Source: a virus
Strand: one strand, 5' to 3'
DNA length: 64,000 nucleotides
Virus record (IMG/VR): IMGVR_UViG_3300028581_002181
Span: 1 to 64,000 of that record
The position numbers were made by a program, and so were the translations under genes. Shown in pieces: positions 39,536 to 64,000 of this stretch. The notes under the pieces are model-generated. The model worked only from the letters and a program-made list of their open reading frames with translations. It was not told where the DNA came from and searched no databases. Numbering within the stretch: the stretch's first letter is position 1; each line of letters starts with the position of its first letter.

Positions 39536-39564
39536 TTGACTTTGCAAACAAAAAGTGATATACT
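39536..39564 (+). promoter_or_regulatory. Sigma70-type promoter opening the cargo island
   Basis: TTGACT (39536-39541), exactly 17 bases, then TATACT (39559-39564). It differs from the consensus by one base at each element. A good ribosome site AGGAG (39571-39575) and an ATG at 39580 follow. This suggests early expression by the host polymerase, unlike the late virion genes on its left. Confidence 0.8.
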
Positions 39565-39579
39565 TTTAATAGGAGAATT

Positions 39580-39921
39580 ATGAATAAAAAAAACATAACA
39601 CAAGACAGCATAGCCATATCTATTGAAATGATAAACTTTAATAATCAGTTAAAATTACTGAAAGATCAATTTATTGACAGCAACATATTTTTTTGTCAAG
39701 GATCGCAGTTTACTGTGAATCATTATCTATTGCAGTTATGTCAAAATTATATTGAACGCAAAAGGGATAAAGATGTGGTTTTATTGGATGATTTTCAAAA
39801 TCCAGTTTTAGTGACTGATCTTATTTCATTCCATGATACTGCGTGGAATCTATATCAAACAAATCTTAATCAATACTATACAGAGTATCAACATCTTTTA
39901 TCAAATAAAGGAAAAGTGTAA
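39580..39921 (+). CDS. Hypothetical protein, first gene of the cargo island
   Basis: A 113-residue, mostly helical product with no domain I recognise. It is directly behind a strong sigma70-type promoter and AGGAG, and ends two bases before the first glycosyltransferase-like gene. Tyr, Asn and Gln are plentiful. Position suggests a regulator, chaperone or substrate of the downstream enzymes, but nothing in the sequence decides this. Confidence 0.6.
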   Translation: MNKKNITQDSIAISIEMINFNNQLKLLKDQFIDSNIFFCQGSQFTVNHYLLQLCQNYIERKRDKDVVLLDDFQNPVLVTDLISFHDTAWNLYQTNLNQYYTEYQHLLSNKGKV

Positions 39922-39922
39922 A

Positions 39923-40774
39923 ATGACCTCGCAAGGAGTTCTAATGTTTGCACACAATAATCAGACAGTGGACTATATCAAACAGAGTATATTTGCAGCA
40001 ATGCAGGTAAAAAAATATTTACAAATGCCTGTAACTCTAATTACGTCTAATCAGGCACACTTGTACATGCATTATAAAAAACATATTAAAATATTTGACA
40101 AAGTTATTCCTGTGAAAGAATTCGACACAATTCAAACCAGAGACTTTTACAATGGAGCTGAAAATAAAATAAATGATCTATGGAAAAATCATCTTCGATC
40201 CACAGCATATGAATTGTCTCCATATGATGAAACCATAGTAATGGACACTGACTATATTGTGGGTAATGCCAATTTACTAAGATGTTTTCAAAGCAAAGAA
40301 GATTTTTTAATACACCAAAAATCCATTTATATTAATTATTTCAATCAATCTGAATGGAAAATCAAATACATCAGCGACACAGGCATGGAGATGTATTGGG
40401 CCACAGTATTTTACTTTAAAAAAACTCAAAGAGTGTGTAAACTATTTGAAATTATCAATCATATTAAAAATAATTGGAACTACTATAGATTTGTGTGGCA
40501 AATATCAGAAACAAATTTTAGGAATGACTTTGCATTTAGTATGGCCATACATATATTAAATGGACACGTTAAAAGTGTTTGGCCTTGTAAAATTCCAGAT
40601 TCATTGTATTACATCACAGACAGAGACAAAACAGAACATTTTGAAAATAATAGATGGCAATTGTCACTGTTTACAGGATCAACTTATGTGAAAACAGCTG
40701 CCAAAAATATTAATCTTCATGTAATGAATAAATTTAGTTTGGATAATGTTATTAACAAGGAATTACAAGCATGA
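39923..40774 (+). CDS. GT-A-type glycosyltransferase-like protein 1
   Basis: 283 residues from the ATG at 39923, chosen over an upstream in-frame ATG because it follows the preceding stop and aligns with the start of its neighbour (MTTQGF/MTSQGV). VMDTDYIVG (107-115) carries the metal-binding DxD of GT-A enzymes that transfer sugars from nucleotide donors. The next gene is a paralogue sharing the first residues and general layout. It overlaps that gene by four bases. Donor and acceptor unknown. Confidence 0.6.
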   Translation: MTSQGVLMFAHNNQTVDYIKQSIFAAMQVKKYLQMPVTLITSNQAHLYMHYKKHIKIFDKVIPVKEFDTIQTRDFYNGAENKINDLWKNHLRSTAYELSPYDETIVMDTDYIVGNANLLRCFQSKEDFLIHQKSIYINYFNQSEWKIKYISDTGMEMYWATVFYFKKTQRVCKLFEIINHIKNNWNYYRFVWQISETNFRNDFAFSMAIHILNGHVKSVWPCKIPDSLYYITDRDKTEHFENNRWQLSLFTGSTYVKTAAKNINLHVMNKFSLDNVINKELQA

Positions 40775-41619
40775 CAACACAAGGATTTTGTATATTTGCA
40801 CAGCATAATAAGAATACAGACTATGCTAAACAAGCCTATGCACTGGCAATGAGTATAAAAATACAAATGCCCAACAGTAAAGTTTGCCTTATTACCAATG
40901 CAAACATCAATAAAAGTATTAGCAAAGTGTTTGACCATGTGTTGGATATTCCAGGCAATGATGAAGCTGTAGATCAAGATTGGAAAATTCAAAATAGATA
41001 TAAGATATATCAATGCACACCATTTGAACGCAGCATAATATTAGACGCTGATATGTTAGTTTTATCAGATATAAGTCACTGGTGGAAATTTTTACAGAAT
41101 TACAACATGTACTTTACTAGCACTGTAAAAAATTATAGAGATGAATATGTAAATAATGATTTTTATCGCAAGACTTTTACGGACAATGATTTACCTAATC
41201 TATATTGCGGAGTGCATTACTATAATCGATGTAGAGAAAATTTTAAATTTTTAGACCTTTTGGCAAATATTGTGCGCAACCATAATATTTTTTATTCAAA
41301 ATTTACTTCAAAAAATCAACAAACATGGTGCAGCATGGATGTTAGTGTGTCTTTGGCTAGTAAAATTTTGAACCTTACGTCAAAAATTACCAGCACAGAC
41401 TCATTTATCACTTTTACTCACATGAAACCTCATTTACAAAATTGGAGTACTGTGCCCAATCATTGGATGGAAAAAGTAAATGTTTATTTTGACTCTAACA
41501 TGAACATAAAAATTGATAATTTTCGTCAACAGGGAATATTGCACTATGTGGAAAATCAATTTTTAACTGATGATTTATTAAAAATTATTGAAAAAAAATA
41601 TTTTGAAAGGATTGAATAA
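40771..41619 (+). CDS. GT-A-type glycosyltransferase-like protein 2 (paralogue)
   Basis: 282 residues, starting MTTQGFCIFAQHNKNTDYAK, parallel to the previous gene (MTSQGVLMFAHNNQTVDYIK). ILDADMLVL (90-98) is a clear GT8-like DxD. It arose by tandem duplication with strong divergence and overlaps the preceding gene by four bases. Likely sugar transfer to fibre or host glycans; not proven. Confidence 0.65.
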   Translation: MTTQGFCIFAQHNKNTDYAKQAYALAMSIKIQMPNSKVCLITNANINKSISKVFDHVLDIPGNDEAVDQDWKIQNRYKIYQCTPFERSIILDADMLVLSDISHWWKFLQNYNMYFTSTVKNYRDEYVNNDFYRKTFTDNDLPNLYCGVHYYNRCRENFKFLDLLANIVRNHNIFYSKFTSKNQQTWCSMDVSVSLASKILNLTSKITSTDSFITFTHMKPHLQNWSTVPNHWMEKVNVYFDSNMNIKIDNFRQQGILHYVENQFLTDDLLKIIEKKYFERIE

Positions 41620-41620
41620 C

Positions 41621-42178
41621 ATGTTTGTAACCTTTGATACAGAATCAGGAAAGATTTTGAGCTGCTCTGTGAATGAATCTCTCAACAGTTTAGCCATAGA
41701 TAATCAATTAGGAGAAAAATTCATAATGGGAATTGAATCAATGTTTAGCTATAAGATAGAATATGTAGATGGCACTTATAAGTTATGCAAGAGAAATGTG
41801 GTACAGAAAGAAAATCTTATTGTGCAAAACAAAAAAAATACTATTATTAATCAAGGTGTATATAAAATTCCAAATAAAACAAATGATCACCAAGGTATTC
41901 TTATCAGAATATTAGAACAACAAAAAAAAATAGAATTTTTAATAGATGAGAATTTTAAAAATACACTTAAAATTACGGTCACAGATACAAATCAAAGAAT
42001 ACATAATTTTTATAGTTGCAAAAAACATGATGCTACTCAGTTGGATCGTATATTTGAAATTAATTTGTATGAATTAGCTATGAAAAAAATATTAAGTTTT
42101 GATTATACACCAAAAGATGAAGTGGATATTTACTGCAAAAAAGTTTTCGACTACTCTTTGGAAAGAATATATGAATAA
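41621..42178 (+). CDS. Hypothetical protein of the glycosyltransferase operon
   Basis: 185 residues from the ATG at 41621, which lies one base after the preceding stop and follows GAAAGG; an upstream start at 41588 would add residues inside the previous gene. The beginning MFVTFDTESGKILSCSV may form a small beta domain. No family recognised. It overlaps the next gene by eight bases. Confidence 0.55.
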   Translation: MFVTFDTESGKILSCSVNESLNSLAIDNQLGEKFIMGIESMFSYKIEYVDGTYKLCKRNVVQKENLIVQNKKNTIINQGVYKIPNKTNDHQGILIRILEQQKKIEFLIDENFKNTLKITVTDTNQRIHNFYSCKKHDATQLDRIFEINLYELAMKKILSFDYTPKDEVDIYCKKVFDYSLERIYE

Positions 42179-43079
42179 AATTGCTATTAAAGATTGCGAT
42201 ATCGTATTTTTGAGCTATGATGAGCCCAATTGTGAAAAAAATTATGCAGCACTCAAACAAATAGTACCTTGGGCCAAACGAGTGCATGGTATACATGGAT
42301 CAGATGCTGCACACAAAGCCTGTGCTGCTGTGTCTGACACAGAATATTTTTTAACTGTGGACGGTGACACTCAAATTAATCCAAAAATATTAGATGTAAT
42401 ACTGGATTTGGATGCTATGGGCATGGACTCAAACTGGATATTCAGCTGGTGTGGACACATTAATGTGAACGGACTCAAATATGGCAATGGCAGTCTCAAA
42501 TTATGGACTAGAAAATTTGTGAATGAAATGAAAACACATGAAAATTACTCTGGTGCAGACAACAATGAAATAGAATTTTGTTATTTTAACAATTTATATC
42601 AGTTCAACGAAAATTACAGCACCAGTTACATTAACAACACACCCAAACAGGCATGGCGAGCTGGTTTTAGAGAAGGGGTAAAAATGAGTTTGAGTAAAAA
42701 TTATAGAATCAAACACATAAATGAACTGTGGTGGCAGAACTATCATAGATTGTTGATCTGGATGACTGTGGGTCAGGATCTGCAGAATGGTATTTGGGCT
42801 ATTGCAGGAGCTAGAGAAGGCTGTTATAGAGTACTTTGCACCATGTGGGACTATACACAGGTTAGAGATTTTAAAACATTAGAGCAATTATGGTTAAGTT
42901 TTAGTAATAATAATACTTGCAATGAAAAAGATGCCAAACAAAAAAGCATAATTTTAGGTAAAGAAATCAAAGATATTCATGCATTAGACTTTCCTATAGA
43001 ACCTTTCGACATTGATAACAGTAAATTTTTTAAAAAATTGTACCATAACCCACCCCGTACGATTAGAAAGACCATATAA
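42171..43079 (+). CDS. GT-A-like protein 3
   Basis: 302 residues from the ATG at 42171, which overlaps the previous stop. CDIVFLSYDEPNCEKNYAAL opens a Rossmann-like strand-helix unit, and TVDGDTQI (62-69) is a DxD motif. The pattern RVHGIHGSDAAHKA recurs in the next gene as RVHGIKGIHQAHIK, so the two are paralogues. The C-terminal third includes WRAGFREGVKM, shared with the next gene as WKSAFRECVKL. Family with unknown substrate; glycosyltransferase activity inferred. Confidence 0.55.
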   Translation: MNKIAIKDCDIVFLSYDEPNCEKNYAALKQIVPWAKRVHGIHGSDAAHKACAAVSDTEYFLTVDGDTQINPKILDVILDLDAMGMDSNWIFSWCGHINVNGLKYGNGSLKLWTRKFVNEMKTHENYSGADNNEIEFCYFNNLYQFNENYSTSYINNTPKQAWRAGFREGVKMSLSKNYRIKHINELWWQNYHRLLIWMTVGQDLQNGIWAIAGAREGCYRVLCTMWDYTQVRDFKTLEQLWLSFSNNNTCNEKDAKQKSIILGKEIKDIHALDFPIEPFDIDNSKFFKKLYHNPPRTIRKTI

Positions 43080-43783
43080 TGTACGATATATTTTTTATCA
43101 GTTATAATGAAAGCCATGCTGACACAAATTATCTGCACTTAAAGAAAAGATTTCCACTAGCTCAGCGTGTGCATGGAATTAAAGGCATACATCAAGCACA
43201 TATAAAAGCAGCCACATTGAGTTTGACCAAAATGTTTTGGGTAGTAGATGCAGATGCAGTGATCAAAGATGATTTTCAGTTTGATTTTGTTGTGCCGGAC
43301 AAGTATCTTAATGCTGTGCATGTGTGGAGGAGTTCAAATCCCATCAATGAATTAGAATATGGCTATGGAGGTGTAAAATTATTGCCTAAAAGATTAACCA
43401 TGCAAATGGATACTAATAGAATAGACATGACCACCAGCATATCAGATGTTTTTTTTGCTAATGGACAAGTTTCTAATGTGACCATGTTTAACACAGATCC
43501 ATTCAACACATGGAAAAGTGCTTTTAGAGAGTGTGTCAAACTCAGCAGCAAAGTGATTGATCGTCAAGTGGACAAAGAAACTGAAAAAAGATTGTTGATT
43601 TGGTGCACAGTGGGTGCAGATCAGCCATACGGAGAGTATGCCATTGCTGGAGCCTTGGCAGGCAGAGTGTATGGCACAGACCACAGAAGTAATTCTGATG
43701 CTTTGAGAATGATCAACAATTTTGAATGGTTAAAATTAACATTTGTGGGACAGTTTCCACACATAGAAAAAGAAATATTATGA
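43079..43783 (+). CDS. GT-A-like protein 4 (paralogue of 3)
   Basis: 234 residues, a shortened paralogue of the preceding gene. VVDADAVI (55-62) carries the DxD. The C-terminal region beyond FRECVKL is shorter. It overlaps both neighbours (one base upstream, ATGA downstream), showing coupled translation. Sugar transfer is inferred, as for the preceding gene. Confidence 0.55.
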   Translation: MYDIFFISYNESHADTNYLHLKKRFPLAQRVHGIKGIHQAHIKAATLSLTKMFWVVDADAVIKDDFQFDFVVPDKYLNAVHVWRSSNPINELEYGYGGVKLLPKRLTMQMDTNRIDMTTSISDVFFANGQVSNVTMFNTDPFNTWKSAFRECVKLSSKVIDRQVDKETEKRLLIWCTVGADQPYGEYAIAGALAGRVYGTDHRSNSDALRMINNFEWLKLTFVGQFPHIEKEIL

Positions 43784-44781
43784 TAGACAGCAATATTCCA
43801 TTTGATAAAATCATAAACTTTGGTCAACGCACCATGCTGGACAGCAAATTATTTTCTGTGAGCTGGATCTTGGCTCGTTTTTGCAACTATGATTGTTCTT
43901 ACTGCTGGCCTTATGCCAAAAGCAAACAGAAAGATCACAGACCATTGTCAGTTTACACAGCAGTGGTGGATGAAATCAAACGTCAGGCCAGGTTGAATGG
44001 ATTCACTGACTATCATTTCAGTTTTTCAGGTGGAGAACCCACTGCCTACAAAGATTTTTTACAATTGGTACAGCACTACAGTGCTGATACTGCTCCTGAA
44101 TATCAGAGTATTCACATGACCACCAACCTTAGTCCTTCGGAAAAATGGTGGGAGCGATGGTTGGAAGCCACAAAAACATTGAACCGTCGCAGCATCACTG
44201 CCAGTTTTCATGCAGAATTTTCAGATGAACAAAAATTTGGAGATAAAATATTGTTATTGATGAAACACAATGTGTTTGTCACCATCAATCAAGTGATGGT
44301 GCCTGATAGATTCACAGAATACTATGACAGATGCGCAAGATTTAATTCCAGAGGCATCAATGTCACACTCAAACCACAGAGTGATCCCACTGCCAGTCAT
44401 GTGGTGGAGGGGTATACTTCGGATCAATTGAACACTTTGCAAACAGGTTTCCCTCAACGCATACAGGAAGGTGAAAATTACAAAGACTTGTTTCAAATTG
44501 AAATGCAGGATGCTCAAGGCAACAAGTATTACATGGATCAAGCAGAGCGATTTAATGCTTTTGGCTTCAACAAGTTTAAAGGATGGCACTGTAATGCCGG
44601 ATATCAAAGTTGTATCATCAGAGAACCAGGCGGAGAAGTCAAACGCAGTTACAGTTGTCATGATGAACCACTGGGCAGCATAGAACAAGGGTTCAAACTG
44701 TTTGACAAACCAAGAATTTGCATCACTCCCACTTGTGTGAGTTCAGCAGACTCAAAAATACCCAAGGCTAGACATGTATAG
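43780..44781 (+). CDS. Radical SAM enzyme 1
   Basis: 333 residues from the ATG at 43780, inside the ATGA overlap. FCNYDCSYCW gives the CX3CX2C site of the [4Fe-4S] cluster (Cys35, Cys39, Cys42), and SGGEPT (83-88) binds SAM. The C-terminal part carries more Cys (WHCNAGYQSC, YSCHDEP, ICITPTC), suggesting an auxiliary cluster or zinc site as in SPASM-type enzymes that modify peptides or other substrates. It overlaps the next radical SAM gene by eight bases. Confidence 0.8.
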   Translation: MIDSNIPFDKIINFGQRTMLDSKLFSVSWILARFCNYDCSYCWPYAKSKQKDHRPLSVYTAVVDEIKRQARLNGFTDYHFSFSGGEPTAYKDFLQLVQHYSADTAPEYQSIHMTTNLSPSEKWWERWLEATKTLNRRSITASFHAEFSDEQKFGDKILLLMKHNVFVTINQVMVPDRFTEYYDRCARFNSRGINVTLKPQSDPTASHVVEGYTSDQLNTLQTGFPQRIQEGENYKDLFQIEMQDAQGNKYYMDQAERFNAFGFNKFKGWHCNAGYQSCIIREPGGEVKRSYSCHDEPLGSIEQGFKLFDKPRICITPTCVSSADSKIPKARHV

Positions 44782-45763
44782 ATACGAAGATATTAGAGAT
44801 ATTCATTTGGAAATCACCAGTAAGTGTCAAGCCAAGTGTCCCATGTGTCCTAGAAGAATCAGTGGAGGTCCTTTGAATCCGTTTATCAAGCTGGAAGAAA
44901 TAACTGTGGCACAATTCAAACAATGGTTTCCAGAAAAATTTGTTCAACAATTACACAGTTTGTTCATGTGTGGTAATTTGGGGGATCCAATCATATCCAA
45001 AGACACATTGGAAATATATCAGTATCTGCGTGAAGTGAATACTAATATTAGACTGGCCATGCACACCAACGGCAGTGCTAGAGATCCAGAATGGTGGAAG
45101 AGACTGGCACAGTTGAAGGTCAAAGTAACATTTGGTCTGGATGGTTTGAAAGATACCAATCATTTGTACAGGATCAGCACAGATTTTGACAAGATCATGC
45201 AGAACGCACAGGCATTCATCACAGCAGGTGGAGTGGCCAAATGGCACATGCTGGTGTTTGCTCACAATGAACATCAAATTGAACAAGCAAGAGCTATGAG
45301 CAAACAAATGGGCTTCGTGGATTTCTCAATCAAACACACTAGTAGATTCAAACAAGATTATTTACAAGTGATTGATGATGCGGGCAGACCCACACACAGA
45401 ATAAAGCCCACTCAAAACAGTTTGGACATGATACCACTAATTGAACAATCACAGAAAGAAGAAAAACCACATATTGTGTGCAAAGCACAAAAAGGTAAAC
45501 AAATCTATGTGAGTGCGTGTGGCAATGTATCACCTTGTTGCTGGTTGGATATGGAATGGATTCCTCCCATGCAAGAATCTAGAATTGATTACATGGAAAA
45601 AATTTCAGAATTTCCCAATCTGCATCGTCAAACGCTGGAGGAAATATTTGATAGCGGTTACTTTACCAAGATAGAAGCACAATGGGGTACAGTGGGATTG
45701 AAAGAATGCACCAAACAATGTGGTTCATTTGATAAACTAGGAGCACAATTTGTTGAAAATTAA
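44774..45763 (+). CDS. Radical SAM enzyme 2, SPASM-type
   Basis: 329 residues. CQAKCPMC (Cys18, Cys22, Cys25) is the cluster motif. In the place of GGEP stands CGNLGDP (about 67-73), a known variant of several SPASM enzymes. Cys are spread at the C-terminus (VCKAQ, SACGNVSPCC, ECTKQCG), the pattern of a SPASM domain with auxiliary iron-sulfur clusters. SPASM members often modify peptides or sugars. It overlaps neighbours on both sides (8 and 14 bases). Confidence 0.8.
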   Translation: MYRYEDIRDIHLEITSKCQAKCPMCPRRISGGPLNPFIKLEEITVAQFKQWFPEKFVQQLHSLFMCGNLGDPIISKDTLEIYQYLREVNTNIRLAMHTNGSARDPEWWKRLAQLKVKVTFGLDGLKDTNHLYRISTDFDKIMQNAQAFITAGGVAKWHMLVFAHNEHQIEQARAMSKQMGFVDFSIKHTSRFKQDYLQVIDDAGRPTHRIKPTQNSLDMIPLIEQSQKEEKPHIVCKAQKGKQIYVSACGNVSPCCWLDMEWIPPMQESRIDYMEKISEFPNLHRQTLEEIFDSGYFTKIEAQWGTVGLKECTKQCGSFDKLGAQFVEN

Positions 45764-46358
45764 TATACAAGACGTTTTATTTTGGATGGATGCTATCAGA
45801 CAATCTGATGATAGATATCGCACACTGGAAAGTTTCTGGAAAGGTCAAATCAACAGCAAAGTATGGTTGATTGAACAATTAAAAAAATTACCTAGAGCAC
45901 ACAGTATGGATATTTTGATCTGTGGCGGATGGTATGGAGTGATGGCCACACTTTTATTCAACAGTGATCTGTATGTGAACCGAATAACCAGTATAGACAT
46001 AGACAGCAAGTGTGAACTCACAGCAAATACCATGAACAAACAGTATGAAATTGCTGGAAGATTCCGTGCTGTCACTCAAGACATGATGACTTATAAAGAT
46101 TATGATCGTTATGATATGATTATTAACACAGTGTGTGAGCATTTAACAACAGAACAATACAATGAATGGTTGAATTTAATACCCAAAGACAAAATTATTG
46201 TGTTGCAAAGCAATGACTACGTGATTCCTGAACATGTGAATCCCATGAAAGATTTAAATCAGTTTGTTTCACAAAGTAAACTGTATCCTATTGTAGAACC
46301 CAGTGAATTACAAACAGAGAAATACAAAAGATTTATGATTGTAGGAAAAAAACAATGA
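45750..46358 (+). CDS. Class I SAM-dependent methyltransferase-like protein
   Basis: 202 residues starting at TTG 45750, preceded by AGGAG about six bases upstream; the next ATG (45786) would cut off the first strand. ILICGGWYGVMA (about 55-66) is a motif I glycine loop and TSIDID (79-84) the acidic end of strand 2. Target unknown. It overlaps the preceding radical SAM gene by 14 bases, implying work on the same substrate. Confidence 0.55.
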   Translation: MLKINIQDVLFWMDAIRQSDDRYRTLESFWKGQINSKVWLIEQLKKLPRAHSMDILICGGWYGVMATLLFNSDLYVNRITSIDIDSKCELTANTMNKQYEIAGRFRAVTQDMMTYKDYDRYDMIINTVCEHLTTEQYNEWLNLIPKDKIIVLQSNDYVIPEHVNPMKDLNQFVSQSKLYPIVEPSELQTEKYKRFMIVGKKQ

Positions 46359-55579: not shown

Positions 55580-55627
55580 GTTATCAAAGTATATTTACCT
55601 TAATTAAATGCCCACATAATATTTTGC

Positions 55628-55635
55628 GATAAATA
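55628..55635 (+). promoter_or_regulatory. Late promoter box, five bases from ATG
   Basis: GATAAATA ends exactly five bases before the ATG at 55641; no Shine-Dalgarno sequence fits between them. It is the start of a new plus-strand operon. Confidence 0.55.
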
Positions 55636-55640
55636 TCAAT

Positions 55641-56339: not shown

Positions 56340-56377
56340 CAATTAAACTGATCAAGTACATTCAAATACACATTTAG

Positions 56378-57559
56378 ATGAATATTTCAAAAAAAATATT
56401 ACCAAACATAGGAGTAATAGGTGTTGGTCGCATTGGTCTTTGTTATGCATTACTTTTAGACCAAACTGGATATCAAGTGTATGCTTACGATATCAACACA
56501 GCTCATATAGAAAATTTAAAACAAGGTGTGGTGGATATTAACGAGCCAGATGTTTATAATTTGCTTGAAAATAATCACATAGTTTTTACCAACAATGCTC
56601 AAAAAATATTTCAAAATTGTGAAATAATTTATATTATGGTGCCTACTCCAAGTAACGCTGATGGAAGTTATGATATTTCTAAAGTTCAAAGTATTATCAA
56701 ACAAATATGTGAATGTAATTTAGATATAAAAGAAAAAATAATAGTTGTGGGCAGCACAGTAAATCCTGGAGATTGTAAAATATTAGAAAAACAATTGCAA
56801 GCATATCATGCGGGTTTGTTGTACAATCCAGTATTCACAGCTCAAGGTTCTATAATAAAAGACCTACAACAAGCAGAGATGGTATTAATAGGTGGAGAAT
56901 CTAATAAGGTTATAAAAAAATATCAACAGATTTATTTTGACATACAAACCATAAAACCAAACATACATGTATTGAGTTTGACCGCAGCAGAGATAGCAAA
57001 AATAGCTGTAAATTGTTACTTAACTACTAAAATATCTTTTGCAAATATTTTAGGAGAAATTTTAATCATGTCTAAACTGGATAATGAAGTTGATCTCACA
57101 TTAGATATGATAGGTTCAGATACAAGAATAGGAAAAAAATTTTTTAAATATGGACTAGGATATGGGGGACCATGTCTACCTAGAGATAATAGAGCACTGT
57201 CTCATTATGCGTCTAAAGTTGGAATAAAATTTGCTTTGGGTGATACTGTTGATCAATTTAACCAACAACATACCTTATTCTTAGCAGATTTTTTTGCAAA
57301 AAAAAATGTAGAAAATTTGCCATTTTATTTTAAAACCGTATCTTACAAATCAAACGTTACGGATATTGAACAAAGCCAATTATATTTGCTGTGTTGTAAA
57401 TTGTTAGAAAAAGGATTTATGGTATATATTGAGCCTATTCCTGCTTTACCCAACGAAATTCAAACATCATTGCAACAAAAATTTCAAGATTTAATTGCAT
57501 TTGTTACTATTACTGACCTACACAGCAGTAATAAAAAAATATTTGAAATTTTTATTTGA
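56378..57559 (+). CDS. UDP-glucose/GDP-mannose dehydrogenase family protein
   Basis: This family oxidises nucleotide-sugar C6 alcohols to acids. 393 residues: GVIGVGRIG (12-20) Rossmann motif, MVPTPSN (87-93), STVNPGD (126-132), NCYLTTKISFANI (Lys218), and GYGGPCLPRDNRAL with catalytic Cys266. The motif normally reading PEF-xxEG is PVFTAQG here (151-157), so the usual Glu is missing; activity or substrate may be changed. Length is slightly below the usual 430. It pairs with the epimerase at 12.5 kb as a nucleotide-sugar supply. Confidence 0.8.
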   Translation: MNISKKILPNIGVIGVGRIGLCYALLLDQTGYQVYAYDINTAHIENLKQGVVDINEPDVYNLLENNHIVFTNNAQKIFQNCEIIYIMVPTPSNADGSYDISKVQSIIKQICECNLDIKEKIIVVGSTVNPGDCKILEKQLQAYHAGLLYNPVFTAQGSIIKDLQQAEMVLIGGESNKVIKKYQQIYFDIQTIKPNIHVLSLTAAEIAKIAVNCYLTTKISFANILGEILIMSKLDNEVDLTLDMIGSDTRIGKKFFKYGLGYGGPCLPRDNRALSHYASKVGIKFALGDTVDQFNQQHTLFLADFFAKKNVENLPFYFKTVSYKSNVTDIEQSQLYLLCCKLLEKGFMVYIEPIPALPNEIQTSLQQKFQDLIAFVTITDLHSSNKKIFEIFI

Positions 57560-57635
57560 TTATCATAAACCTGTGGTAATCTATAATAGCCTACATGGAC
57601 CAATGGTACAAATAAGTATTGAATAAACATTAATT

Positions 57636-58271
57636 ATGATAGAATACTGGAATAACTTTTACAAGCACGAACTAGGCACATTAGCCATTGCTAATTTGGT
57701 ATACGAGCCTTTGATCAGTCCTAACAAAAACATATTCAAAATGAATTTTAATAAAAATGAATATTTTGTCAATTCCAATATGACTGATGATCTTAGACAA
57801 AATTGGTTTTCAAGGGAAATTAATTATATGGAAAAATTAAAAAATAAACCATATGCTCCTGAAATTTTAAACATTGATCACAGAAATAGAACCATTGAAT
57901 TTAAATGGTATGATCGCAGTGTGAGTAAACTTATACACACTGGTGAAATATCCACAGTGCCCAACTGGCAACAACAGATCAAAGACATCGTTGCTGATTT
58001 AATGTCAGAAAACATACGCAAATCTAATCTTTATCCTCACACTTTTTATTTGGATCATCATAATCATATTCGCATTATGGATTTGTATGGTTGCAGCAGC
58101 ACTGAAGATAGATATGTGTCCAAAGAATTGTTGACTTCAATACTTTTTGATTCTACTCATCCTAGATTTGCTCAAAGTCTTACAGGAGCAATGTATGATA
58201 CTTTTAAACTGTATGAATTAACTATAAAAATGAATTATGGTGAATGGCCGGGAGATTTTTTAAATGCTTGA
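57636..58271 (+). CDS. Kinase-like protein 1 (degenerate)
   Basis: 211 residues. The arrangement, a strand-rich start, EFKWYD hinge-like segment (about 90), then NLYPHTFYLDHHNHIRIMDL (about 130-150), recalls the catalytic loop and metal-binding strand of small kinases (H-x-x-N...D), but the residues are not canonical. A paralogue with the same layout is at 61313-61999. AATAAACA lies six bases before the ATG. It could phosphorylate a sugar or be inactive. It overlaps the next gene by eight bases. Confidence 0.4.
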   Translation: MIEYWNNFYKHELGTLAIANLVYEPLISPNKNIFKMNFNKNEYFVNSNMTDDLRQNWFSREINYMEKLKNKPYAPEILNIDHRNRTIEFKWYDRSVSKLIHTGEISTVPNWQQQIKDIVADLMSENIRKSNLYPHTFYLDHHNHIRIMDLYGCSSTEDRYVSKELLTSILFDSTHPRFAQSLTGAMYDTFKLYELTIKMNYGEWPGDFLNA

Positions 58272-58800
58272 ATACATGGGTAATAGTATGCACGTGATTG
58301 ATTGGGATTCTGTAATTAAAGAAGTTCAAGACCAAGAAGGAAAATGTGCCTGCAAGTATCTTCCTGTAAAAGAAGTTGCAGAACTTAAAGAGATCGACGA
58401 TGCACTGGGTAATTATTGTAGAGATTCCATTGAGTGGATCAATTATTATCCAGGCAAAGAATTTTCTATGGACATAGCTCATAAGTTTGGAGACTTTGTA
58501 AAAATGCCCAGAATGATTAAATGTTGGATATCCAAAGTGTTGCCTGGTAAAACTGCACCGTGGCATTGGGACTGGGACGTAGATTGGAAAAAATATTTAG
58601 AAAATGGTCAACCAATAAGATTCACAGCAATGATTAATCCTCCTGCTGTGGGTCATGTGTTTATTGTAGGAGACCAAGCATTATACAATGAAAAACAAGG
58701 TGATGTTCACAAATGGTCTGATTTTAGATCTTATCACGCAGGCACCAATTGTGGATTGGTTCCTAAATTTAATTTTAATTATTTGGCATACGCAGAATGA
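58264..58800 (+). CDS. Fe(II)/2-oxoglutarate oxygenase-like protein 3
   Basis: 178 residues. APWHWDWD (98-105) contains HxD (His101, Asp103), and SYHAGTNCG (156-164) has His158. The adjacent gene is a paralogue with PWHWD and WHAGSNCG in the same places. The start is supported by that similarity (MLEYMGN/MKNYIGN). Possibly part of a hydroxylase pair working in sequence. Stop and next start overlap by four bases. Confidence 0.65.
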   Translation: MLEYMGNSMHVIDWDSVIKEVQDQEGKCACKYLPVKEVAELKEIDDALGNYCRDSIEWINYYPGKEFSMDIAHKFGDFVKMPRMIKCWISKVLPGKTAPWHWDWDVDWKKYLENGQPIRFTAMINPPAVGHVFIVGDQALYNEKQGDVHKWSDFRSYHAGTNCGLVPKFNFNYLAYAE

Positions 58801-59354
58801 AAAATTATATTGGTAATTGTTCTCAAATAATAGATTGGCCCAGTGTGTTGTACTCTGTGCAAAATTCTAAACCTGCTTATCAAGGACCTAGACATAAAAA
58901 AGGACAAGATTTGCCTGGCATAGCTGAAATAAGTTCTTCTTGGGAAAAGGCTGGATACAAATTATTATCAGAAGGTGGAACCATTGGATGGGATATGTGT
59001 GTGCCTGAAGATAACTTTGATCGAAAAATTGTTGATCAATTTGCAGATTACGTGAATGTTGACCCTTTAAGCTGTTGGGTAAGTGTGATTCACCAAGGCT
59101 GTCATGCGCCGTGGCATTGGGACACTCAAGACAATGAGCAAGAGCTAAGAAAAATGGGAAATATAGAAAGATTTCATTGTCATATGGAAGATACTTTTCC
59201 AGGTCATGTGTTGATAGTAGAAAATGATTTATTTTATAATGCAAAGCAAGGAGATGTGTATAAATGGCCTGACAGAAATGCCTGGCACGCAGGTTCCAAC
59301 TGTGGTCAAAGACCTAAATATATTTTTAATTTTTTTGGAAAAAGTCGTACATGA
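58797..59354 (+). CDS. Fe(II)/2-oxoglutarate oxygenase-like protein 4 (paralogue of 3)
   Basis: 185 residues. HAPWHWDTQ (103-111) with His107 and Asp109, and AWHAGSNCG (162-170) with His164. VLIVENDLFYNAKQGDVYKW parallels VFIVGDQALYNEKQGDVHKW in the previous gene. Tandem duplicate. Overlaps the next gene by four bases. Confidence 0.65.
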   Translation: MKNYIGNCSQIIDWPSVLYSVQNSKPAYQGPRHKKGQDLPGIAEISSSWEKAGYKLLSEGGTIGWDMCVPEDNFDRKIVDQFADYVNVDPLSCWVSVIHQGCHAPWHWDTQDNEQELRKMGNIERFHCHMEDTFPGHVLIVENDLFYNAKQGDVYKWPDRNAWHAGSNCGQRPKYIFNFFGKSRT

Positions 59355-59905
59355 AAATTTTAATGACTGGCCATACTTCCCCTATAGGAAGTGTTTTGTT
59401 TGAACATCTATCTTTCACACACCAAGTCACTGGCATATCTAGGCAAAGTGGGTATGATTTAAATAAATTTGAAGATATTCAAAAAATTATAAACGACAGC
59501 ACAAATTATGATCATTTTATAAATTTAGCACACGTGGGAGATGCACAATGTCAATTGTTATCTTTAATTTATAAAAAATGGAGTGAAGTAAATCATTTGG
59601 GAAAGATAATTTCTTTTGGTACACTGGGTACTGAATTGCCAGAAGACATTTTAAAAAAAACTGGCACAGATTTAGATTATTTTAAAAAAAAAATACATTT
59701 AGAAAATATACACAAATGTTTGTCTATTCAAAAAATATTTGGCATTCAACCACAAAGTGTGTTGATTAGAATTTTAAATTTTGGAAAAAAAACTGGTTCA
59801 AGGCAGGGTGAACCTAGCTGCAATAAAGAAGAAATAATTAGAACTGTTGATTACGTATTAAATGAAACTTTATATATAAGCAAGATTGATTTAAGAAAAA
59901 TTTAA
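59351..59905 (+). CDS. Short SDR-like (NAD(P)-binding) protein
   Basis: 184 residues. MKILMTGHTSPIGSVLFEHL (1-20) has the TGxxxxxG nucleotide-binding loop and ISFGTLGTE (about 87-95) the following strand. The usual YxxxK pair is represented by DLDYFKKK (107-114), which is plausible. Shorter than typical SDR enzymes (250). Might reduce or oxidise a sugar intermediate. It converges with the opposite-strand gene, overlapping it at the stops by four bases. Confidence 0.5.
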   Translation: MKILMTGHTSPIGSVLFEHLSFTHQVTGISRQSGYDLNKFEDIQKIINDSTNYDHFINLAHVGDAQCQLLSLIYKKWSEVNHLGKIISFGTLGTELPEDILKKTGTDLDYFKKKIHLENIHKCLSIQKIFGIQPQSVLIRILNFGKKTGSRQGEPSCNKEEIIRTVDYVLNETLYISKIDLRKI

Positions 59906-60708
59906 TAATTACTTAGATGATCTATGCCTAATTTTTTTCTAAATTCATCAGTGAACACACAATCAATACGTAATCCATACTCTTGTTCTTTATTAATTTC
60001 TCCTCCATGCCAATCTTGATCGTTCCAAAAAGCAGCATTAGAATTAATATACACTTTGTTCTTTGATTCAGGATTCCAGATATAGAATCCTCGTTTAGTA
60101 TTATGTCTTATGTGTATGAATTCATTTCGGTGATCACTGTAACCTTGCTGATTGCCATGTTTTCCGTCTAGATCTCTGTGTTCAAAAGGCTGACCGTCAT
60201 GTTCACAATGAAAAAATATCACTCTACCTATACGACTAATAATTTGTTGTGTAAGTAAATTTTTTATCCAAATGACCAATCCTGGAAAATATTTACTTTC
60301 TTCAGTAATCTGTCTTTCTGAATTTCTATGGTCCCAATCTCCTTCGTTCCATAGAAAGTAATATATGTAAGGATCTTTGGCACCCAGCACTGCTTTGAGA
60401 TAGCGTGTGAACTGATTTCTTGTGCGATAATCTTTGATATTGGCATAAAGATCATCACCATTTTTTCTAATAGGATGATCTGCGGAAAGAGCAAGATATT
60501 CTTTTACAGCCATATAAATTGGTTTCCAATTCAATTGATAACTCATGTCCTGCAGATTGAATCCTGGCGACATCCAAGTGCCTTCTTTGGCATATTCTCT
60601 AGCCAGAGCAAAACCTCTACATATTTCCGGATGTAATTTTCTAAAACCTTCTATGTCAAGATGTTGATCTAGAGCAATGTATGGTTTTCCACCAATTCCT
60701 CTTATCAT
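59902..60708 (-). CDS. Fe(II)/2-oxoglutarate oxygenase-like protein 5
   Basis: 268 residues from the ATG at 60708, chosen because a late box stands five bases upstream; a TTG 30 bases further up is less likely. The region CEHDGQPFEHRDLDG (His at the HxD-type site, H-R-D), IHIRHNTKRGFYIW and AAFWNDQDWHGGEI gives the iron-binding triad of 2-oxoglutarate oxygenases. It is the only minus-strand gene between two plus-strand runs, so it was perhaps inverted or added separately. Confidence 0.55.
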   Translation of the reverse strand: MIRGIGGKPYIALDQHLDIEGFRKLHPEICRGFALAREYAKEGTWMSPGFNLQDMSYQLNWKPIYMAVKEYLALSADHPIRKNGDDLYANIKDYRTRNQFTRYLKAVLGAKDPYIYYFLWNEGDWDHRNSERQITEESKYFPGLVIWIKNLLTQQIISRIGRVIFFHCEHDGQPFEHRDLDGKHGNQQGYSDHRNEFIHIRHNTKRGFYIWNPESKNKVYINSNAAFWNDQDWHGGEINKEQEYGLRIDCVFTDEFRKKLGIDHLSNY

Positions 60709-60713
60709 ACAGA

Positions 60714-60720
60714 TATTTAT
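60714..60720 (-). promoter_or_regulatory. Late promoter box (minus strand), five bases from ATG
   Basis: On the minus strand ATAAATA (60720-60714) is followed by five bases and the ATG at 60708. The opposite strand has TAAATA (60724-60729) before the ATG at 60748, so this gap may fire in both directions. Confidence 0.55.
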
Positions 60721-60747
60721 TTGTAAATACATCAGCAATTAATTATT

Positions 60748-61320
60748 ATGGCTTTCAAACTTATACCATATTCCGACAATTTAGATCTCAGTGAATTTTA
60801 CAGCATAGCCAAAAACAAAGGCTTTGTGAATAATTCAACCAAAAAGATGTTGGTGGATTCTTTATCTAACGAAGAAAAATTTCAAGTTTGGATGCTGATG
60901 TGGGATGACAGAGTAATTGGATCCAGTGCAGCACACACTTTTCCTGAAATGGGTGCTGATAGTTTCCGCATAGCTTGTCGTATTTGTACCTTTACAGACT
61001 GTTTGCCTAAAGAATACCAAATGGTGCGAACAAGAGACACCATTAGATATCATCAAACCACAACTCAACAATTTTTTCAACCAGCAGGTATTAATTGGGC
61101 TGGCATAGGAAAAAATTATTATGTTACCACTAATAAAAATACTGACGGCACACAGAGACTGGTGCATTCTATTGTGGCTCCTACTTTGGAAAGTGTTGGT
61201 GTTTACACAAGAATCACCGACATGATGTACCGAGGAACCATACAGACTGTGTGGCGTGTGAATGCAGATGTGTATTTTGATCAATTAAAAAAAGTTAAAT
61301 CATGGCCCACATATGAATAG
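60748..61320 (+). CDS. GNAT-like N-acetyltransferase
   Basis: 190 residues. VWMLMWDDRVIGSSAAH (about 47-63) is the GNAT core strand pattern, and RIACRICTF (74-82) the next strand. The CoA-binding (R/Q)xxGx(G/A) loop is not clear; VRTRDTIRYH (93-102) may replace it. Acyl transfer to an amino sugar would fit the neighbouring aminotransferase-like and glycosyltransferase genes, but is inference. It overlaps the next gene by eight bases. Confidence 0.45.
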   Translation: MAFKLIPYSDNLDLSEFYSIAKNKGFVNNSTKKMLVDSLSNEEKFQVWMLMWDDRVIGSSAAHTFPEMGADSFRIACRICTFTDCLPKEYQMVRTRDTIRYHQTTTQQFFQPAGINWAGIGKNYYVTTNKNTDGTQRLVHSIVAPTLESVGVYTRITDMMYRGTIQTVWRVNADVYFDQLKKVKSWPTYE

Positions 61321-61999
61321 ATACAATTACTACTACAATAATGTACCAGGTCAAGGATTGTGCAGGAACAATCTTGTGTACACCAGTCTTATAAATCAAA
61401 ACAAAACAGAATTTGTGCAATGGTTTCACAATGACACAGAATATCATCGTGGACAAAATGAAGTGATGGATCCCATTCTGATGGAACAAAAATGGCAGAG
61501 AGAAGTGGACATGCTGCTGATGATGCATCACAATTTTCCAAAACACATTCCTGACATATTAGAACTGGACTATGACAATAAAAAAATTATCTATGGCATT
61601 GATGGTGTGGATTTTTGGGAACAGAGTCACACAGTGGGCATGGATGCAGTGCTGCCCAACTGGCGTGAACAGATGCTGGAAATTATGCAAGCACACAAAA
61701 CACTGGGATTATACAAGTATAGTCTACACCCCAGCAGTTACTTTGTGGTGGAAGGCAAATTAAAAAGTGTGAATTATTTCTTCTGCTATCATAAAAGTGA
61801 ACCATTTATCACAGTGCAGGATCATCTCAGTCATATATCACATGAAAGAAGACAATATTTACTGCCCAAAATGAAAGAAATGCACATTGACATGAACATT
61901 CCCACAGATTTTGCCAGCTTGCAGGTATTGTGTTTGGAAAGTTTTAGAAACAATTACCCCAAGGACTTTATAGATGCTGCCATAGCACTGTACAAATAA
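61313..61999 (+). CDS. Kinase-like protein 2 (paralogue of 57636)
   Basis: 228 residues with the same order as the 57636 product: IIYGIDGVDFWEQ (85-97), VLPNWREQMLEIMQAHK (106-122), SLHPSSYFVVEGKLKSVNYF (about 130-150). The Asp of the metal-binding motif is not clear. This suggests an inactive or unusual kinase-like fold. Followed by a radical SAM gene after two bases. Confidence 0.4.
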   Translation: MNRYNYYYNNVPGQGLCRNNLVYTSLINQNKTEFVQWFHNDTEYHRGQNEVMDPILMEQKWQREVDMLLMMHHNFPKHIPDILELDYDNKKIIYGIDGVDFWEQSHTVGMDAVLPNWREQMLEIMQAHKTLGLYKYSLHPSSYFVVEGKLKSVNYFFCYHKSEPFITVQDHLSHISHERRQYLLPKMKEMHIDMNIPTDFASLQVLCLESFRNNYPKDFIDAAIALYK

Positions 62000-62001
62000 T
62001 C

Positions 62002-63159
62002 ATGGAAGATACAAAAACTATAAGTTTGTGCGATCATTGTTATCGTCATTGTGCAGCAGAACGTGTCACACGTGCGGATGGAGTATATCTTGTAAAAACC
62101 TGTGAAGAGCATGGAGAAATGCAGCATATGGTAGAAAGAAATATCGAATTTTATCAGCAACTGCATTATGATGTTTCTGGTTACAGTATACCTCACGGCA
62201 CCATGGTTGAAGTCACTGACAGATGCAACTTGAATTGCCCCCATTGTTATCATAAACCTGATAATAAATTACAGGACCGATCTATAGAAAGTATATGTAA
62301 ACAAATTGCAGAAAAATTTGATGCTGAATCAGGTGCTGTGATATTGGCAGGTGCTGAACCCACAGTGCGTAAAGATTTACCAAAATTAATTATTCAAATT
62401 AAATCATTATTAAAAAAATTAAACAGGCCTGAAGATGTGTGCATATTAACCAATGGAGTAAAGTTGTCTGACAGAGCATGGGTGAAAGAAATCGCTGCTG
62501 CTGGAGCCACCATGGTGATGATTGGCATGAACCATCACACATATCAAGGTCACACGGTGCATCAAAAACAATTGCAAGGCATAGACAACTGTATTGCTGA
62601 AGGAATTTTTGTGTACTATGTGGGCTATACATTGGAAAGTTTGGATCATATGGAAGAAGTGTTGGAAGAAATTCAATCTTTGGGTAATAAGAGTTGGCAG
62701 TATAGGATCAGAGCAGGTTCCGACATAGGTAGATCACCCAATGAACCTAGATTCTTTCTCAGTGATCATGTGGCATTAATAAAATCTATCTGTGATCGCA
62801 AAGGATGGACTTGGGAAAAACACACAGCCGATGACAATCTTTATCACTACATGGTGAACATCAACGGTATCACTCATAGGATAATACAGTGGAGTGATCA
62901 TAAGACCATTGACTTGGAACAATTGCAGTGTGGACCTTGGTGTGACTTTGTGCCGGGAAAACCTGTAACAAATTTTTTACATCAAATTATGTTGCGAGAT
63001 GCTGTGGTGAATAAAAAAATGTTATTGCACGACACTGTGCCTGATCGTTATGTGATTCAATCAAAAAATATAGATTATAAAGAGTCTCAATGGACTTATC
63101 TCAGTTGGGCTGATTATAAAAAATTACAACAAAAAAGTATTAGTATGCTACGAAGTTAG
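62002..63159 (+). CDS. Radical SAM enzyme 8 with N-terminal zinc-like domain (Mj0619/Tes-like layout)
   Basis: 385 residues. The N-terminus has CDHCYRHC (Cys10, Cys13, Cys17) and TCEEHG (33-38), as in the radical SAM group containing archaeal tetraether lipid synthase and Mj0619-like methylases. The core has CNLNCPHC (Cys75, Cys79, Cys82) and AGAEPT in place of GGEP. A C-terminal QCGPWC may bind an auxiliary cluster. Differs in kind from the other seven here and is separate from them. It converges with the fibre-like gene, with 20 bases of overlap. Confidence 0.75.
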   Translation: MEDTKTISLCDHCYRHCAAERVTRADGVYLVKTCEEHGEMQHMVERNIEFYQQLHYDVSGYSIPHGTMVEVTDRCNLNCPHCYHKPDNKLQDRSIESICKQIAEKFDAESGAVILAGAEPTVRKDLPKLIIQIKSLLKKLNRPEDVCILTNGVKLSDRAWVKEIAAAGATMVMIGMNHHTYQGHTVHQKQLQGIDNCIAEGIFVYYVGYTLESLDHMEEVLEEIQSLGNKSWQYRIRAGSDIGRSPNEPRFFLSDHVALIKSICDRKGWTWEKHTADDNLYHYMVNINGITHRIIQWSDHKTIDLEQLQCGPWCDFVPGKPVTNFLHQIMLRDAVVNKKMLLHDTVPDRYVIQSKNIDYKESQWTYLSWADYKKLQQKSISMLRS

Positions 63160-64000
63160 AGAAGTGTACTTCGTATTTGAAAATCGTACCAGATAAAAAT
63201 GTGTTAGGTGTCTGCACTCTTAATCTCACGTTTGCTCCACTGATATCAGCTGTGACTGCATTCACTGGGTTAGAGCCGGTGAATGTGGATGCAATAGATT
63301 GTATGCTGGCTAATCCAGTACCGTTTGCAATCAAAAATTCTCCGATATAACTGTCATTGGCACTATAATGCACGTGAATGGTCACTTTGGCTGCTCTGTA
63401 AATTGCGTGAGCATAAGTCAATGCTGTGTAGGTTTCCAGAGTGCTGCTGGTCACTTGTGTGTATGTGCCTGAATTCATTCCGGTTAAAACTTTTTCCACA
63501 CCAGCTGTGGTGTTGAAAGATGCATTGCCTGCCACTGATAATGTGGCAGTGGGATTGATCATGTTCACTCCCAGTTCACCAAAAGAATTGAAAACTAAAA
63601 ATTTTAAAGATGCTCCACCATCATCTGAAGTGGCAAAACCTATTGCGCCTGGTACTGCACCTGGTGCTACTGGATTGTTTGAGTCTGTTTCTACACTGGC
63701 AAATAAAGCACTGGAAAATCTATAAGCAGTGCCGTCATGTCCACTAACATTCAGTGTGAACAATGGATCGCCTTGTTGCAAAATTGTAGGCACACTGAGA
63801 GTGCCTCTAGACACATTTATTTCAAAACTGTCATTGCTGGTGCCATCAGTTAACGAATTAATTCTTAAACTTTTATTAGAGATTACAGGAGCTTTAATAT
63901 TTAAAGCTGTGCCCAAAGCTGAATTGTTTGCGCCTATTTGTAAGGTGTCCAAACCGTTCAATAGAGTCACTATATTGTCAGTGATCACCACATCGCCGTT
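63140..64000 (-). CDS. Tail-fibre-like protein, N-terminus outside window
   Basis: The visible part is at least 283 residues and the frame continues to the right edge (NGDVVITDN before it). NPTATLSVAGNASFNTTAG is the 'xVGIN/LSVxGNA' type found in phage fibre and tail-spike stalks, and the last 115 residues form a beta-rich knob. It is on the opposite strand to the main virion genes. Related in kind to the fibre genes at 33-38 kb (similar GIN/LxVTGN text at 33.7 kb). Likely an additional or exchangeable fibre. Confidence 0.65.
   Translation of the reverse strand, partial: NGDVVITDNIVTLLNGLDTLQIGANNSALGTALNIKAPVISNKSLRINSLTDGTSNDSFEINVSRGTLSVPTILQQGDPLFTLNVSGHDGTAYRFSSALFASVETDSNNPVAPGAVPGAIGFATSDDGGASLKFLVFNSFGELGVNMINPTATLSVAGNASFNTTAGVEKVLTGMNSGTYTQVTSSTLETYTALTYAHAIYRAAKVTIHVHYSANDSYIGEFLIANGTGLASIQSIASTFTGSNPVNAVTADISGANVRLRVQTPNTFLSGTIFKYEVHFSNFVAY
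63149..63175. terminator. Bidirectional hairpin at converging gene ends
   Basis: TACGAAGT (63149-63156) and ACTTCGTA (63168-63175) form a perfect 8-bp stem with an 11-base loop inside the overlap of two converging genes. No T-run on either strand, so termination strength is uncertain. Confidence 0.45.

Follow-up and report, generated by a model that had tools for sequence, protein, structure and literature searches.

A widely co-inherited set of radical SAM and oxygenase genes in the host-recognition slot of a T4-like phage: candidate tailoring enzymes for a phage-made adhesin

What would a T4-like phage do with eight radical SAM (rSAM) enzymes encoded among its fibre genes? The window analysed here is the first 64,000 nt of the 116-kb record of such a phage, in which a first-pass annotation had described a single 24-kb island at 39536-63175. 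The gene content of this island holds, but not its unity: 39580-63159 consists of two modules, g01-g06 (39580-43783), which is a separate fibre-linked unit of the fibre locus also present in rSAM-free phages, and g07-g28 (43726-63159), which is the rSAM island proper. Genes overlap tightly at stop and start, as had been noted, the stretch being 99.2% coding with intergenic gaps that sum to about 280 bp. Misassembly does not explain the arrangement, because it recurs in two separate IMG/VR contigs, L012 (g07-g28, 98-100% identity) and L191 (d4584 to g23, 100% identity).

All eight rSAM genes announced for 43726-63159 are intact, each with one CX3CX2C motif and without internal stops, and PF04055 was over its cut-off in 8/8:

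43726..44781 (+), g07, rSAM with C-terminal cysteines (PF04055 E 2e-13)
44774..45763 (+), g08, rSAM/SPASM (PF04055 and PF13186 over cut-off)
49915..51228 (+), g14, N-terminal twitch rSAM (NF033640, 342 bits)
51221..52120 (+), g15, rSAM (PF04055 E 6e-17)
52117..53106 (-), g16, rSAM (PF04055 E 5e-13)
53094..54113 (-), g17, rSAM (PF04055 E 4e-11)
54110..55579 (-), g18, N-terminal twitch rSAM (NF033640, 398 bits)
62002..63159 (+), g28, rSAM with HMPTM-type zinc ribbon, Tes/TrsS-like (PF04055 E 8e-17, PF23545 E 6e-13)

Only g14 and g18 passed the NCBIfam NF033640 cut-off of 170 bits, the other six remaining below it, and g28 scored below the cut-off for NCBIfam TrsS/Tes. For g18, at least 111 relatives were recovered from IMG/VR, the best 80 at 57-100% identity; viral g18 sequences form one clade, and the PDB profile search returned a weak match to SkfB only. 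A ninth, sub-threshold PF04055 match at record 72129-72365 is QueE-like by inspection. The five oxygenase-like genes were likewise borne out by conserved HxD...H sites, PF05118 being passed by g10 alone among them:

46355..47023 (+), g10, Asp/Arg hydroxylase-type Fe/2OG oxygenase (PF05118 E 3.5e-10, over cut-off; H126/D128/H182 invariant)
55641..56339 (+), g19, Fe/2OG oxygenase-like (PF05118 E 2e-4, just under cut-off; H87/D89/H131, HxD...H in 56/56 sequences)
58264..58800 (+), g22, HxD...H oxygenase-like (H101/D103 in 60/60, H158 in 57/60)
58797..59354 (+), g23, paralogue of g22 in one family (triad H101/D103/H158 in g22 numbering)
59902..60738 (-), g25, HxD...H oxygenase-like (H187/D189/H244 in 30/30)

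The remaining island enzymes are more heterogeneous:

45750..46358 (+), g09, methyltransferase-like by inspection only (no family match)
47010..48395 (+), g11, DxD glycosyltransferase-like N-terminus (motif only; no family)
48392..49243 (+), g12, PLP fold-type-I-like (DGAW and SLSKGLGL motifs invariant)
49236..49982 (+), g13, PP-loop ATPase (SGGADS and four cysteines, C210/C231/C234/C237, invariant)
56378..57559 (+), g20, UDP-glucose/GDP-mannose dehydrogenase (PF03721 E 1e-33)
57636..58271 (+), g21, kinase-like by inspection (no Pfam match)
59351..59905 (+), g24, SDR-like (PF01370 E 0.0024, below cut-off)
60748..61320 (+), g26, GNAT-like by inspection in the earlier annotation only (no Pfam match)
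61313..61999 (+), g27, paralogue of g21 in one family

Here the annotation fared unevenly. Its nucleotide-sugar dehydrogenase is secure, g20 being a UDP-glucose dehydrogenase. The PLP protein keeps the invariant SLSKGLGL lysine found in PLP enzymes but matches no family, and the methyltransferase (g09), SDR (g24) and GNAT (g26) labels are weak. In the case of g13, called a QueC-like PP-loop ATPase, the PP-loop motif stands, although below the Pfam PP-loop cut-off, and the QueC label is weak (PHROG E 0.0014): no QueC (PF06508) was matched anywhere in the 116-kb record at E 0.001, in a search whose control recovered QueC in 12/14 genomes. PDB profile searches with g09, g12 and g13 gave no usable match.

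The gene set was then sought in relatives, as the annotation had suggested, and was found co-inherited in many phages rather than scattered singly, so that the refuting condition set by the annotation turned out in favour of its reading. Among 33 full-flank loci, taken from IMG/VR contigs that extend far to either side of one rSAM gene, g14, g15 and g19 occur in all 33, g08 in 32, g09 and g22/23 in 30 each, g07 in 29, g21/27 in 28, g12 in 27 and g16/17 in 26. Gene order varies among these loci, and the outer genes g20 (2/33), g24, g26, g10 and g11 are gained or lost between them. The rSAM island is not a chance pile but a real co-inherited set. Many uncultivated bacteriophages of lakes and seas carry it, and were recognised as viral by genes for polymerase, clamp loader, RIIA and tail proteins; terminase was uninformative as a hallmark because the contigs are fragments. 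The set was found in none of 50,697 GenBank phage records, a DNA-level search of GenBank phages gave no match, and a PHROG scan of frequent neighbour genes left most of them unmatched.

Fibre genes flank the variable region at both ends, and its content differs between relatives:

32834..34861 (+), tail fibre with phage tail collar domain (PF07484 E 9e-15; PHROG tail protein)
34861..37053 (+), tail fibre-like gene, paralogue of both adjoining fibres (order conserved among relatives)
37083..38519 (+), tail fibre-like gene (PHROG tail fibre E 2e-11; conserved among relatives)
63140..64000, on to record base 64513 (-), Mtd_N receptor-binding fibre (PF18454 E 6.5e-11, full protein)

An earlier motif scan for fibres had found one within 10-kb flanks, which were too short. 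The Mtd_N fibre adjoins the island in about 9/14 long contigs, in accordance with the described position beside fibres. In a control of 39 loci, from phages chosen by a core gene and not by rSAM genes, it stands at the island edge in 38/39, with rSAM genes present or not. Adjacency alone therefore does not name the substrate, and this control overturned its use as proof. A search for an S74 peptidase found none. In sister phages, the same slot holds three Asp/Arg hydroxylases besides a tryptophan halogenase and an AMP-binding protein; 15 halogenase loci and 21 rSAM loci were counted, and 0 with both. A halogenase-like gene also lies elsewhere in the record of the window phage, so the two kits are not strictly exclusive.

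Another candidate for modification heads the unit between the tail fibres and the island:

38591..39487 (+), w38591, adhesin- or fibre-like protein of 298 aa, first gene of the glycosyltransferase unit
39580..39921 (+), g01, small protein of the fibre/glycosyltransferase unit (follows w38591 in L115 and in every viral relative)
39923..40774 (+), g02, glycosyltransferase-like (DTD motif; no Pfam match; conserved as part of the unit)
40771..41619 (+), g03, glycosyltransferase-like (DAD motif; functionless PHROG 1903, E 3e-6)
41621..42178 (+), g04, protein of the same unit (16/20 viral loci; its position in L115 is taken by a 163-aa ORF)
42171..43079 (+), g05, GT-A-like glycosyltransferase (DxD; AF2 model pLDDT 91.5)
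43079..43783 (+), g06, paralogue of g05 by alignment, with the same DxD

The protein w38591 comes first in the unit in 20/20 viral loci and is a candidate substrate of the linked glycosyltransferases. Its model, of moderate confidence (pLDDT 72), matches three BFVD phage proteins (E ~1e-13) and nothing in the PDB, and a role as fibre tip is putative. The model of g05 lies nearest to GT-A glycosyltransferases, yet with low TM-scores (0.2-0.35); in Foldseek it matched the PBCV-1 capsid glycosyltransferase 2p73 (E 4e-4, prob 1.00, TMq 0.22). The DxD motif is conserved in g05/g06, and g02, g03, g05, g06 and g11 make up the five DxD glycosyltransferase-like genes that had been listed. On the other hand, the proposal that the small proteins at 39580 (g01) and 41621 (g04) are partners of the rSAM enzymes is not borne out and was rejected: the two are members of the fibre/glycosyltransferase unit, g01 is found also in rSAM-free phages and in 0/33 rSAM loci, and g04 is absent from the 33 full-flank rSAM loci. 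The g01-g06 enzymes and the rSAM island may be separate systems.

The gene set is conserved in shuffled order, in a slot shared with the tailoring enzymes of sister phages. Since the kit is kept together though reshuffled, and in a swap-prone fibre slot, it probably runs a chemical modification, the target of which is most likely the fibres or the host surface. Tentatively, and at somewhat less than even confidence, the kit is read here as interchangeable, co-inherited tailoring enzymes that occupy the host-recognition slot in T4-like phages, with a phage-made adhesin as likeliest acceptor. The slot lies between the tail-fibre module and the Mtd_N-type receptor-binding fibre, and the soluble kit enzymes would act jointly in the cytoplasm of the infected cell. 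Side chains of amino acids, or else sugars, may be remodelled by the rSAM/SPASM/twitch enzymes together with the Fe/2OG hydroxylases; a building block may come from, or be activated by, the PP-loop and PLP enzymes; and the glycosyltransferases may attach sugars. Before its assembly, the Mtd_N fibre or else w38591 would be the acceptor, and the binding target or the stability of the fibre would be altered. Besides co-inheritance and placement, this reading draws on the leading position of w38591 in its unit, on the halogenase kit of sister phages, on the absence of membrane segments from the 28 proteins and on the closeness of g05 to a viral capsid glycosyltransferase.

It is somewhat unlikely that the target of the kit is a host surface glycan, lipopolysaccharide or capsule, remodelled in infection, for example against superinfection or progeny rebinding. 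Glycosyltransferases in pelagimyophage host recognition clusters are interpreted so in the passages at hand of PMC7029224, and such a target also fits because most Bdellovibrionota cassettes are without nearby fibre genes and several lie amid glycosyltransferase and acyltransferase genes. The five DxD genes point the same way, as does g20, which suggests sugar chemistry but occurs in 2/33 loci only. However, membrane glycosyltransferase, flippase and polymerase are absent among the 28 genes: a hydrophobic segment of at least 1.9 occurs in 0/28 proteins, so no flippase or Gtr-type enzyme is present, and g01-g28 contain no serotype-converting gtr module (membrane flippase plus membrane glycosyltransferase). 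Moreover, the Asp/Arg-hydroxylase-type and twitch/SPASM enzymes, together with the tryptophan halogenase of sister phages, indicate amino-acid and not glycan chemistry. A more specific version of the adhesin reading is itself unlikely: that an rSAM pathway re-tailors the receptor-binding fibre, that the rSAM or halogenase/hydroxylase kit is swapped in the slot, and that predatory-type Bdellovibrionota use a related cassette for their own adhesins. A phage-borne cluster for a diffusible compound or cofactor-like small molecule is improbable; the PP-loop ATPase, the PLP-type enzyme and the many rSAM enzymes and oxygenases recall natural-product clusters, as do the halogenase kits, but exporter, carrier-protein and synthetase genes are lacking and placement is fixed in the fibre slot. 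A RiPP cluster in particular was rejected, because the dense coding leaves no space for a precursor peptide (no small ORF lies in the gaps, which agrees with the annotation) and no known peptide-maturase equivalog of NCBIfam was over cut-off. Disfavoured, and more improbable still, is a collection of unrelated auxiliary genes in a hypervariable hot spot. Variability of the slot and turnover of its outer genes would fit this, but ten families co-occur in most loci despite reordering, and a core is common to Bdellovibrionota chromosomes. Finally, nucleobase hypermodification of phage DNA with the nearby QueE- and FolE-like genes (record 71727-73636) and the weakly QueC-like g13 is highly improbable and was rejected, as the record has no Pfam QueC match, QueE and FolE lie outside the slot, and five oxygenases and glycosyltransferases beside fibres would be left unexplained.

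To our knowledge, T4-like phages with multiple rSAM genes have been noted since 2010 with no function assigned, and our literature search found no account of phage fibres with rSAM, oxygenase and glycosyltransferase genes. The present analysis adds a delimited gene set, inherited together in many phages and sited at a definite position, for which a halogenase kit can stand in; it thereby becomes testable whether phages diversify host-recognition proteins via natural-product or cofactor-type enzymes. The island would also provide eight rSAM enzymes as yet uncharacterised, along with a counterpart in Bdellovibrionota. The Campylobacter phages CP220, CPt10 and CP21 are also T4-like, with 11-12 rSAM genes, five of them in an interchangeable module that in CP220 lies near baseplate genes, beside an amidinotransferase and two sugar-nucleotide transferases (PMC2853527). 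They share only g08-like and g15/g16-like rSAM families with the island, and profiles of g05/06, g07 (as best match), g09, g12, g13, g18 and the oxygenases found no match in them. The marine T4-like phage TARA_ERS488813_N000010 has 12 rSAM genes, interpreted by its authors as Fe-S cluster metabolism and, in the passages at hand, not set against fibres (PMC5332604). In the cultivated Vibrio phage K566, a single short stretch holds four N-terminal twitch rSAM genes, although no other kit family was detected there. In the pelagimyophage host recognition cluster, too, a variable region within the structural module contains fibres, but the portions at hand of PMC7029224 present it as a general variable region, mention neither an Mtd_N boundary nor a conserved multi-rSAM/oxygenase/PP-loop/PLP set, and describe freshwater pelagimyophages without rSAM genes. 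Bdellovibrionota chromosomes also carry a core of the set, g05/06, g07, g08, g09 and g18. In their cassettes (L093-L105, L113, L115), g05/06-, g07-, g08-, g18- and often g09-like genes adjoin, with g07 at 49-55% identity in most loci. Unlike the island, these cassettes are surrounded by other twitch rSAM and glycosyltransferase genes, most have no nearby fibre gene, and their g18-like genes form a clade separate from the viral one. The w38591-g01-g02-g03-g05 unit occurs among them in L115 only; on this Bdellovibrionales chromosome, the w38591-headed glycosyltransferase unit adjoins g18- and g07-like genes.

Related phages carry the same genes as the island g07-g28 (43726-63159), a point that the first-pass annotation had proposed to check. 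In IMG/VR, a scan with the radical SAM (rSAM) gene g18 returned at least 111 relatives (57-100% identity among the best 80), and 33 g18 loci have flanks of at least 6 and 9 kb. The set is co-inherited in these full-flank loci: g14, g15 and g19 occur in 33/33, g08 in 32, g09 and g22/23 in 30, g07 in 29, g21/27 in 28, g12 in 27, g16/17 in 26, g13 in 20 and g25 in 19, with a median of seven rSAM matches per locus (scored by similarity to the window genes, ignoring kinship). Since gene order differs among the IMG/VR loci, more than simple block descent keeps the set together. Long contigs with the island encode a T4-like polymerase, clamp loader, RIIA and tail genes. Most island-bearing contigs appear to represent lineages other than the present phage, because gene w32219 was found in just 2/30 and core gene d6102 in 4/30 rSAM contigs, although fragmentary contigs could be missing these two genes for that reason alone. 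Among 50,697 GenBank phages, rSAM matches reach ~22-26% identity, and the only match to the non-rSAM genes comes from Pseudomonas phage Paride (OR805295.1, 203426-204073; 30%, E 8e-6), where a hypothetical protein resembles the 298-aa adhesin- or fibre-like protein w38591 (38591-39487) encoded directly before g01. DnaK- and GroEL-like genes were seen at L147:5293-9159, on the phage contig containing L069.

The source of the record (linear, 116,456 bp, of which the window is bases 1-64000) is a T4-like myovirus, given its SbcC/SbcD-like gp46/47, late sigma factor, baseplate wedge and hub, and tail collar fibre. QueE- and FolE-like genes at 71727-73636 of the record (L009:11727-13636, minus) suggest 7-deazaguanine chemistry.

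The region had been read as one island, and is better described as two modules. All 20 loci returned by an IMG/VR scan with w38591 show the order fibres-w38591-g01-g02-g03-(g04)-g05-g06; g07 comes next in 16, followed by g08, g09 and other rSAM genes where the contig extends. In four near-identical contigs (L137-L140), core gene d4584 comes after g06 within ~700 bp, with no island rSAM genes between them and a g09-like gene slightly further along. The two parts are therefore separable: g01-g06 is the older unit, tied to the fibres, and g07-g28 is an island that can be inserted. The products at 39580 (g01) and 41621 (g04), once favoured as rSAM partners, find no support in that role, as g01-g04 occur in 0/33 full-flank loci.

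At the other edge of the island lies a receptor-binding fibre gene:
63140-64513, minus strand, Mtd_N fibre (Mtd_N domain E 6.5e-11 on the full gene)
The domain is also present in island-edge genes of three other phages and in 25/49 records, and in ~9/14 long contigs a fibre of this type directly borders the island. In a specificity control, phages were chosen by d6102 and not by an rSAM gene; the Mtd_N fibre starts 51-94 bp past d4584 in 38/39 loci with at least 3 kb visible beyond d4584, and of these 38, 18 carry rSAM genes and 20 carry none in the visible 3-8.5 kb. The fibre is thus a constant neighbour of the slot, with or without rSAM genes; the position beside fibres holds, but adjacency is no proof that the fibre is the substrate. 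The slot edge also has a pair of genes (record 66102-68492; L009:6102-8492, minus) that look VWA-like and AAA (MoxR/CobS-like); by sequence appearance alone they resemble cobT/cobS, paired in marine T4-like phages.

In sister phages the slot encodes a tryptophan halogenase (E 1e-73) together with an AMP-binding protein and three Asp/Arg hydroxylases. Halogenase, AMP-binding and hydroxylase genes recur by the Mtd_N fibre with an unknown protein of 415-417 aa (L226:12874-21154, L239:12913-21223, L244, L241, L268). Another filling (L230:12763-20870) has a B12-type rSAM, a TauD dioxygenase and more unknown genes behind an Mtd_N fibre. Halogenase (15) and rSAM (21) genes coincide in 0/63 loci (hypergeometric 8e-4, uncorrected for kinship or for differences in visible length). 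The two kits are alternatives by tendency but not exclusive, because three g18 loci have a halogenase-like gene, as does the present phage far from the island (record 88874-90247; L010:9874-11247, minus), ~30% identical to the sister-phage halogenases.

Outside phages, a genome scan with a g18 profile gave 25 loci, chiefly in Bdellovibrionota metagenome-assembled genomes, many with g05/06-, g07-, g08-, g18- and often g09-like genes clustered on large contigs. In a quick g18 tree, the viral rows, except for one stray long-branched row, group with one short "archaeal" contig in a single clade (SH-aLRT 100) that is separate from the Bdellovibrionota sequences. Genes like w38591 occur in 3/18 such genomes. 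In L115, pheT is followed by the cassette and then by genes like w38591, g01, g02, g03 and g05, arranged as in the window except that a 163-aa ORF stands in for g04; this stretch, close to a contig end in a metagenome bin, is possibly a prophage remnant. The other two (L108, L110) come from bins labelled Rickettsiales and Gammaproteobacteria, but their fibre genes suggest T4-like phage contigs that ended up in bacterial bins. Bdellovibrio uses phage-like adhesive fibres (PMC10769870), and a tie to the g18 cassette is only an idea.

All eight rSAM genes claimed at first lie above the Pfam cut-off with CX3CX2C intact; g14 and g18 belong to NF033640 (N-terminal twitch rSAM), and the remaining six have no above-cut-off match to a named family. 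The product of g28 has an HMPTM-type zinc ribbon, with TrsS and the tetraether synthase Tes as nearest relatives. The five oxygenase-like genes (four families) also keep HxD...H, as proposed. The QueC, methyltransferase, SDR and GNAT labels are less well supported than first stated, QueC having no Pfam match anywhere in the record. No hydrophobic segments were found in the g01-g28 proteins, which argues for soluble, cytoplasmic enzymes; from their classes, these would act on an amino-acid or sugar group, which they would activate, oxidise and rearrange, and GT-A-like transferases may take part. In predicted-structure comparison, g05 comes nearest, with low TM-scores, to a capsid glycosyltransferase of a chlorella virus. 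The main competing acceptor would be host glycans. We lean towards a protein, most plausibly a fibre, because twitch/SPASM rSAM enzymes, Asp/Arg hydroxylases and the halogenase share side-chain chemistry as a common theme.

T4-like phages with many rSAM genes are already known. For example, one report describes 12 such genes in a TARA genome (PMC5332604), and another describes rSAM cassettes within the host recognition clusters of pelagimyophages (PMC7029224). Within the non-subscription literature searched, the defined gene set, the Mtd_N boundary, the halogenase alternative and the Bdellovibrionota counterpart had no prior description. The T4-like Campylobacter phages CP220 and CPt10 carry 11-12 rSAM genes (PMC2853527), but their module has only the g08- and g15/16-like families in common with the island.
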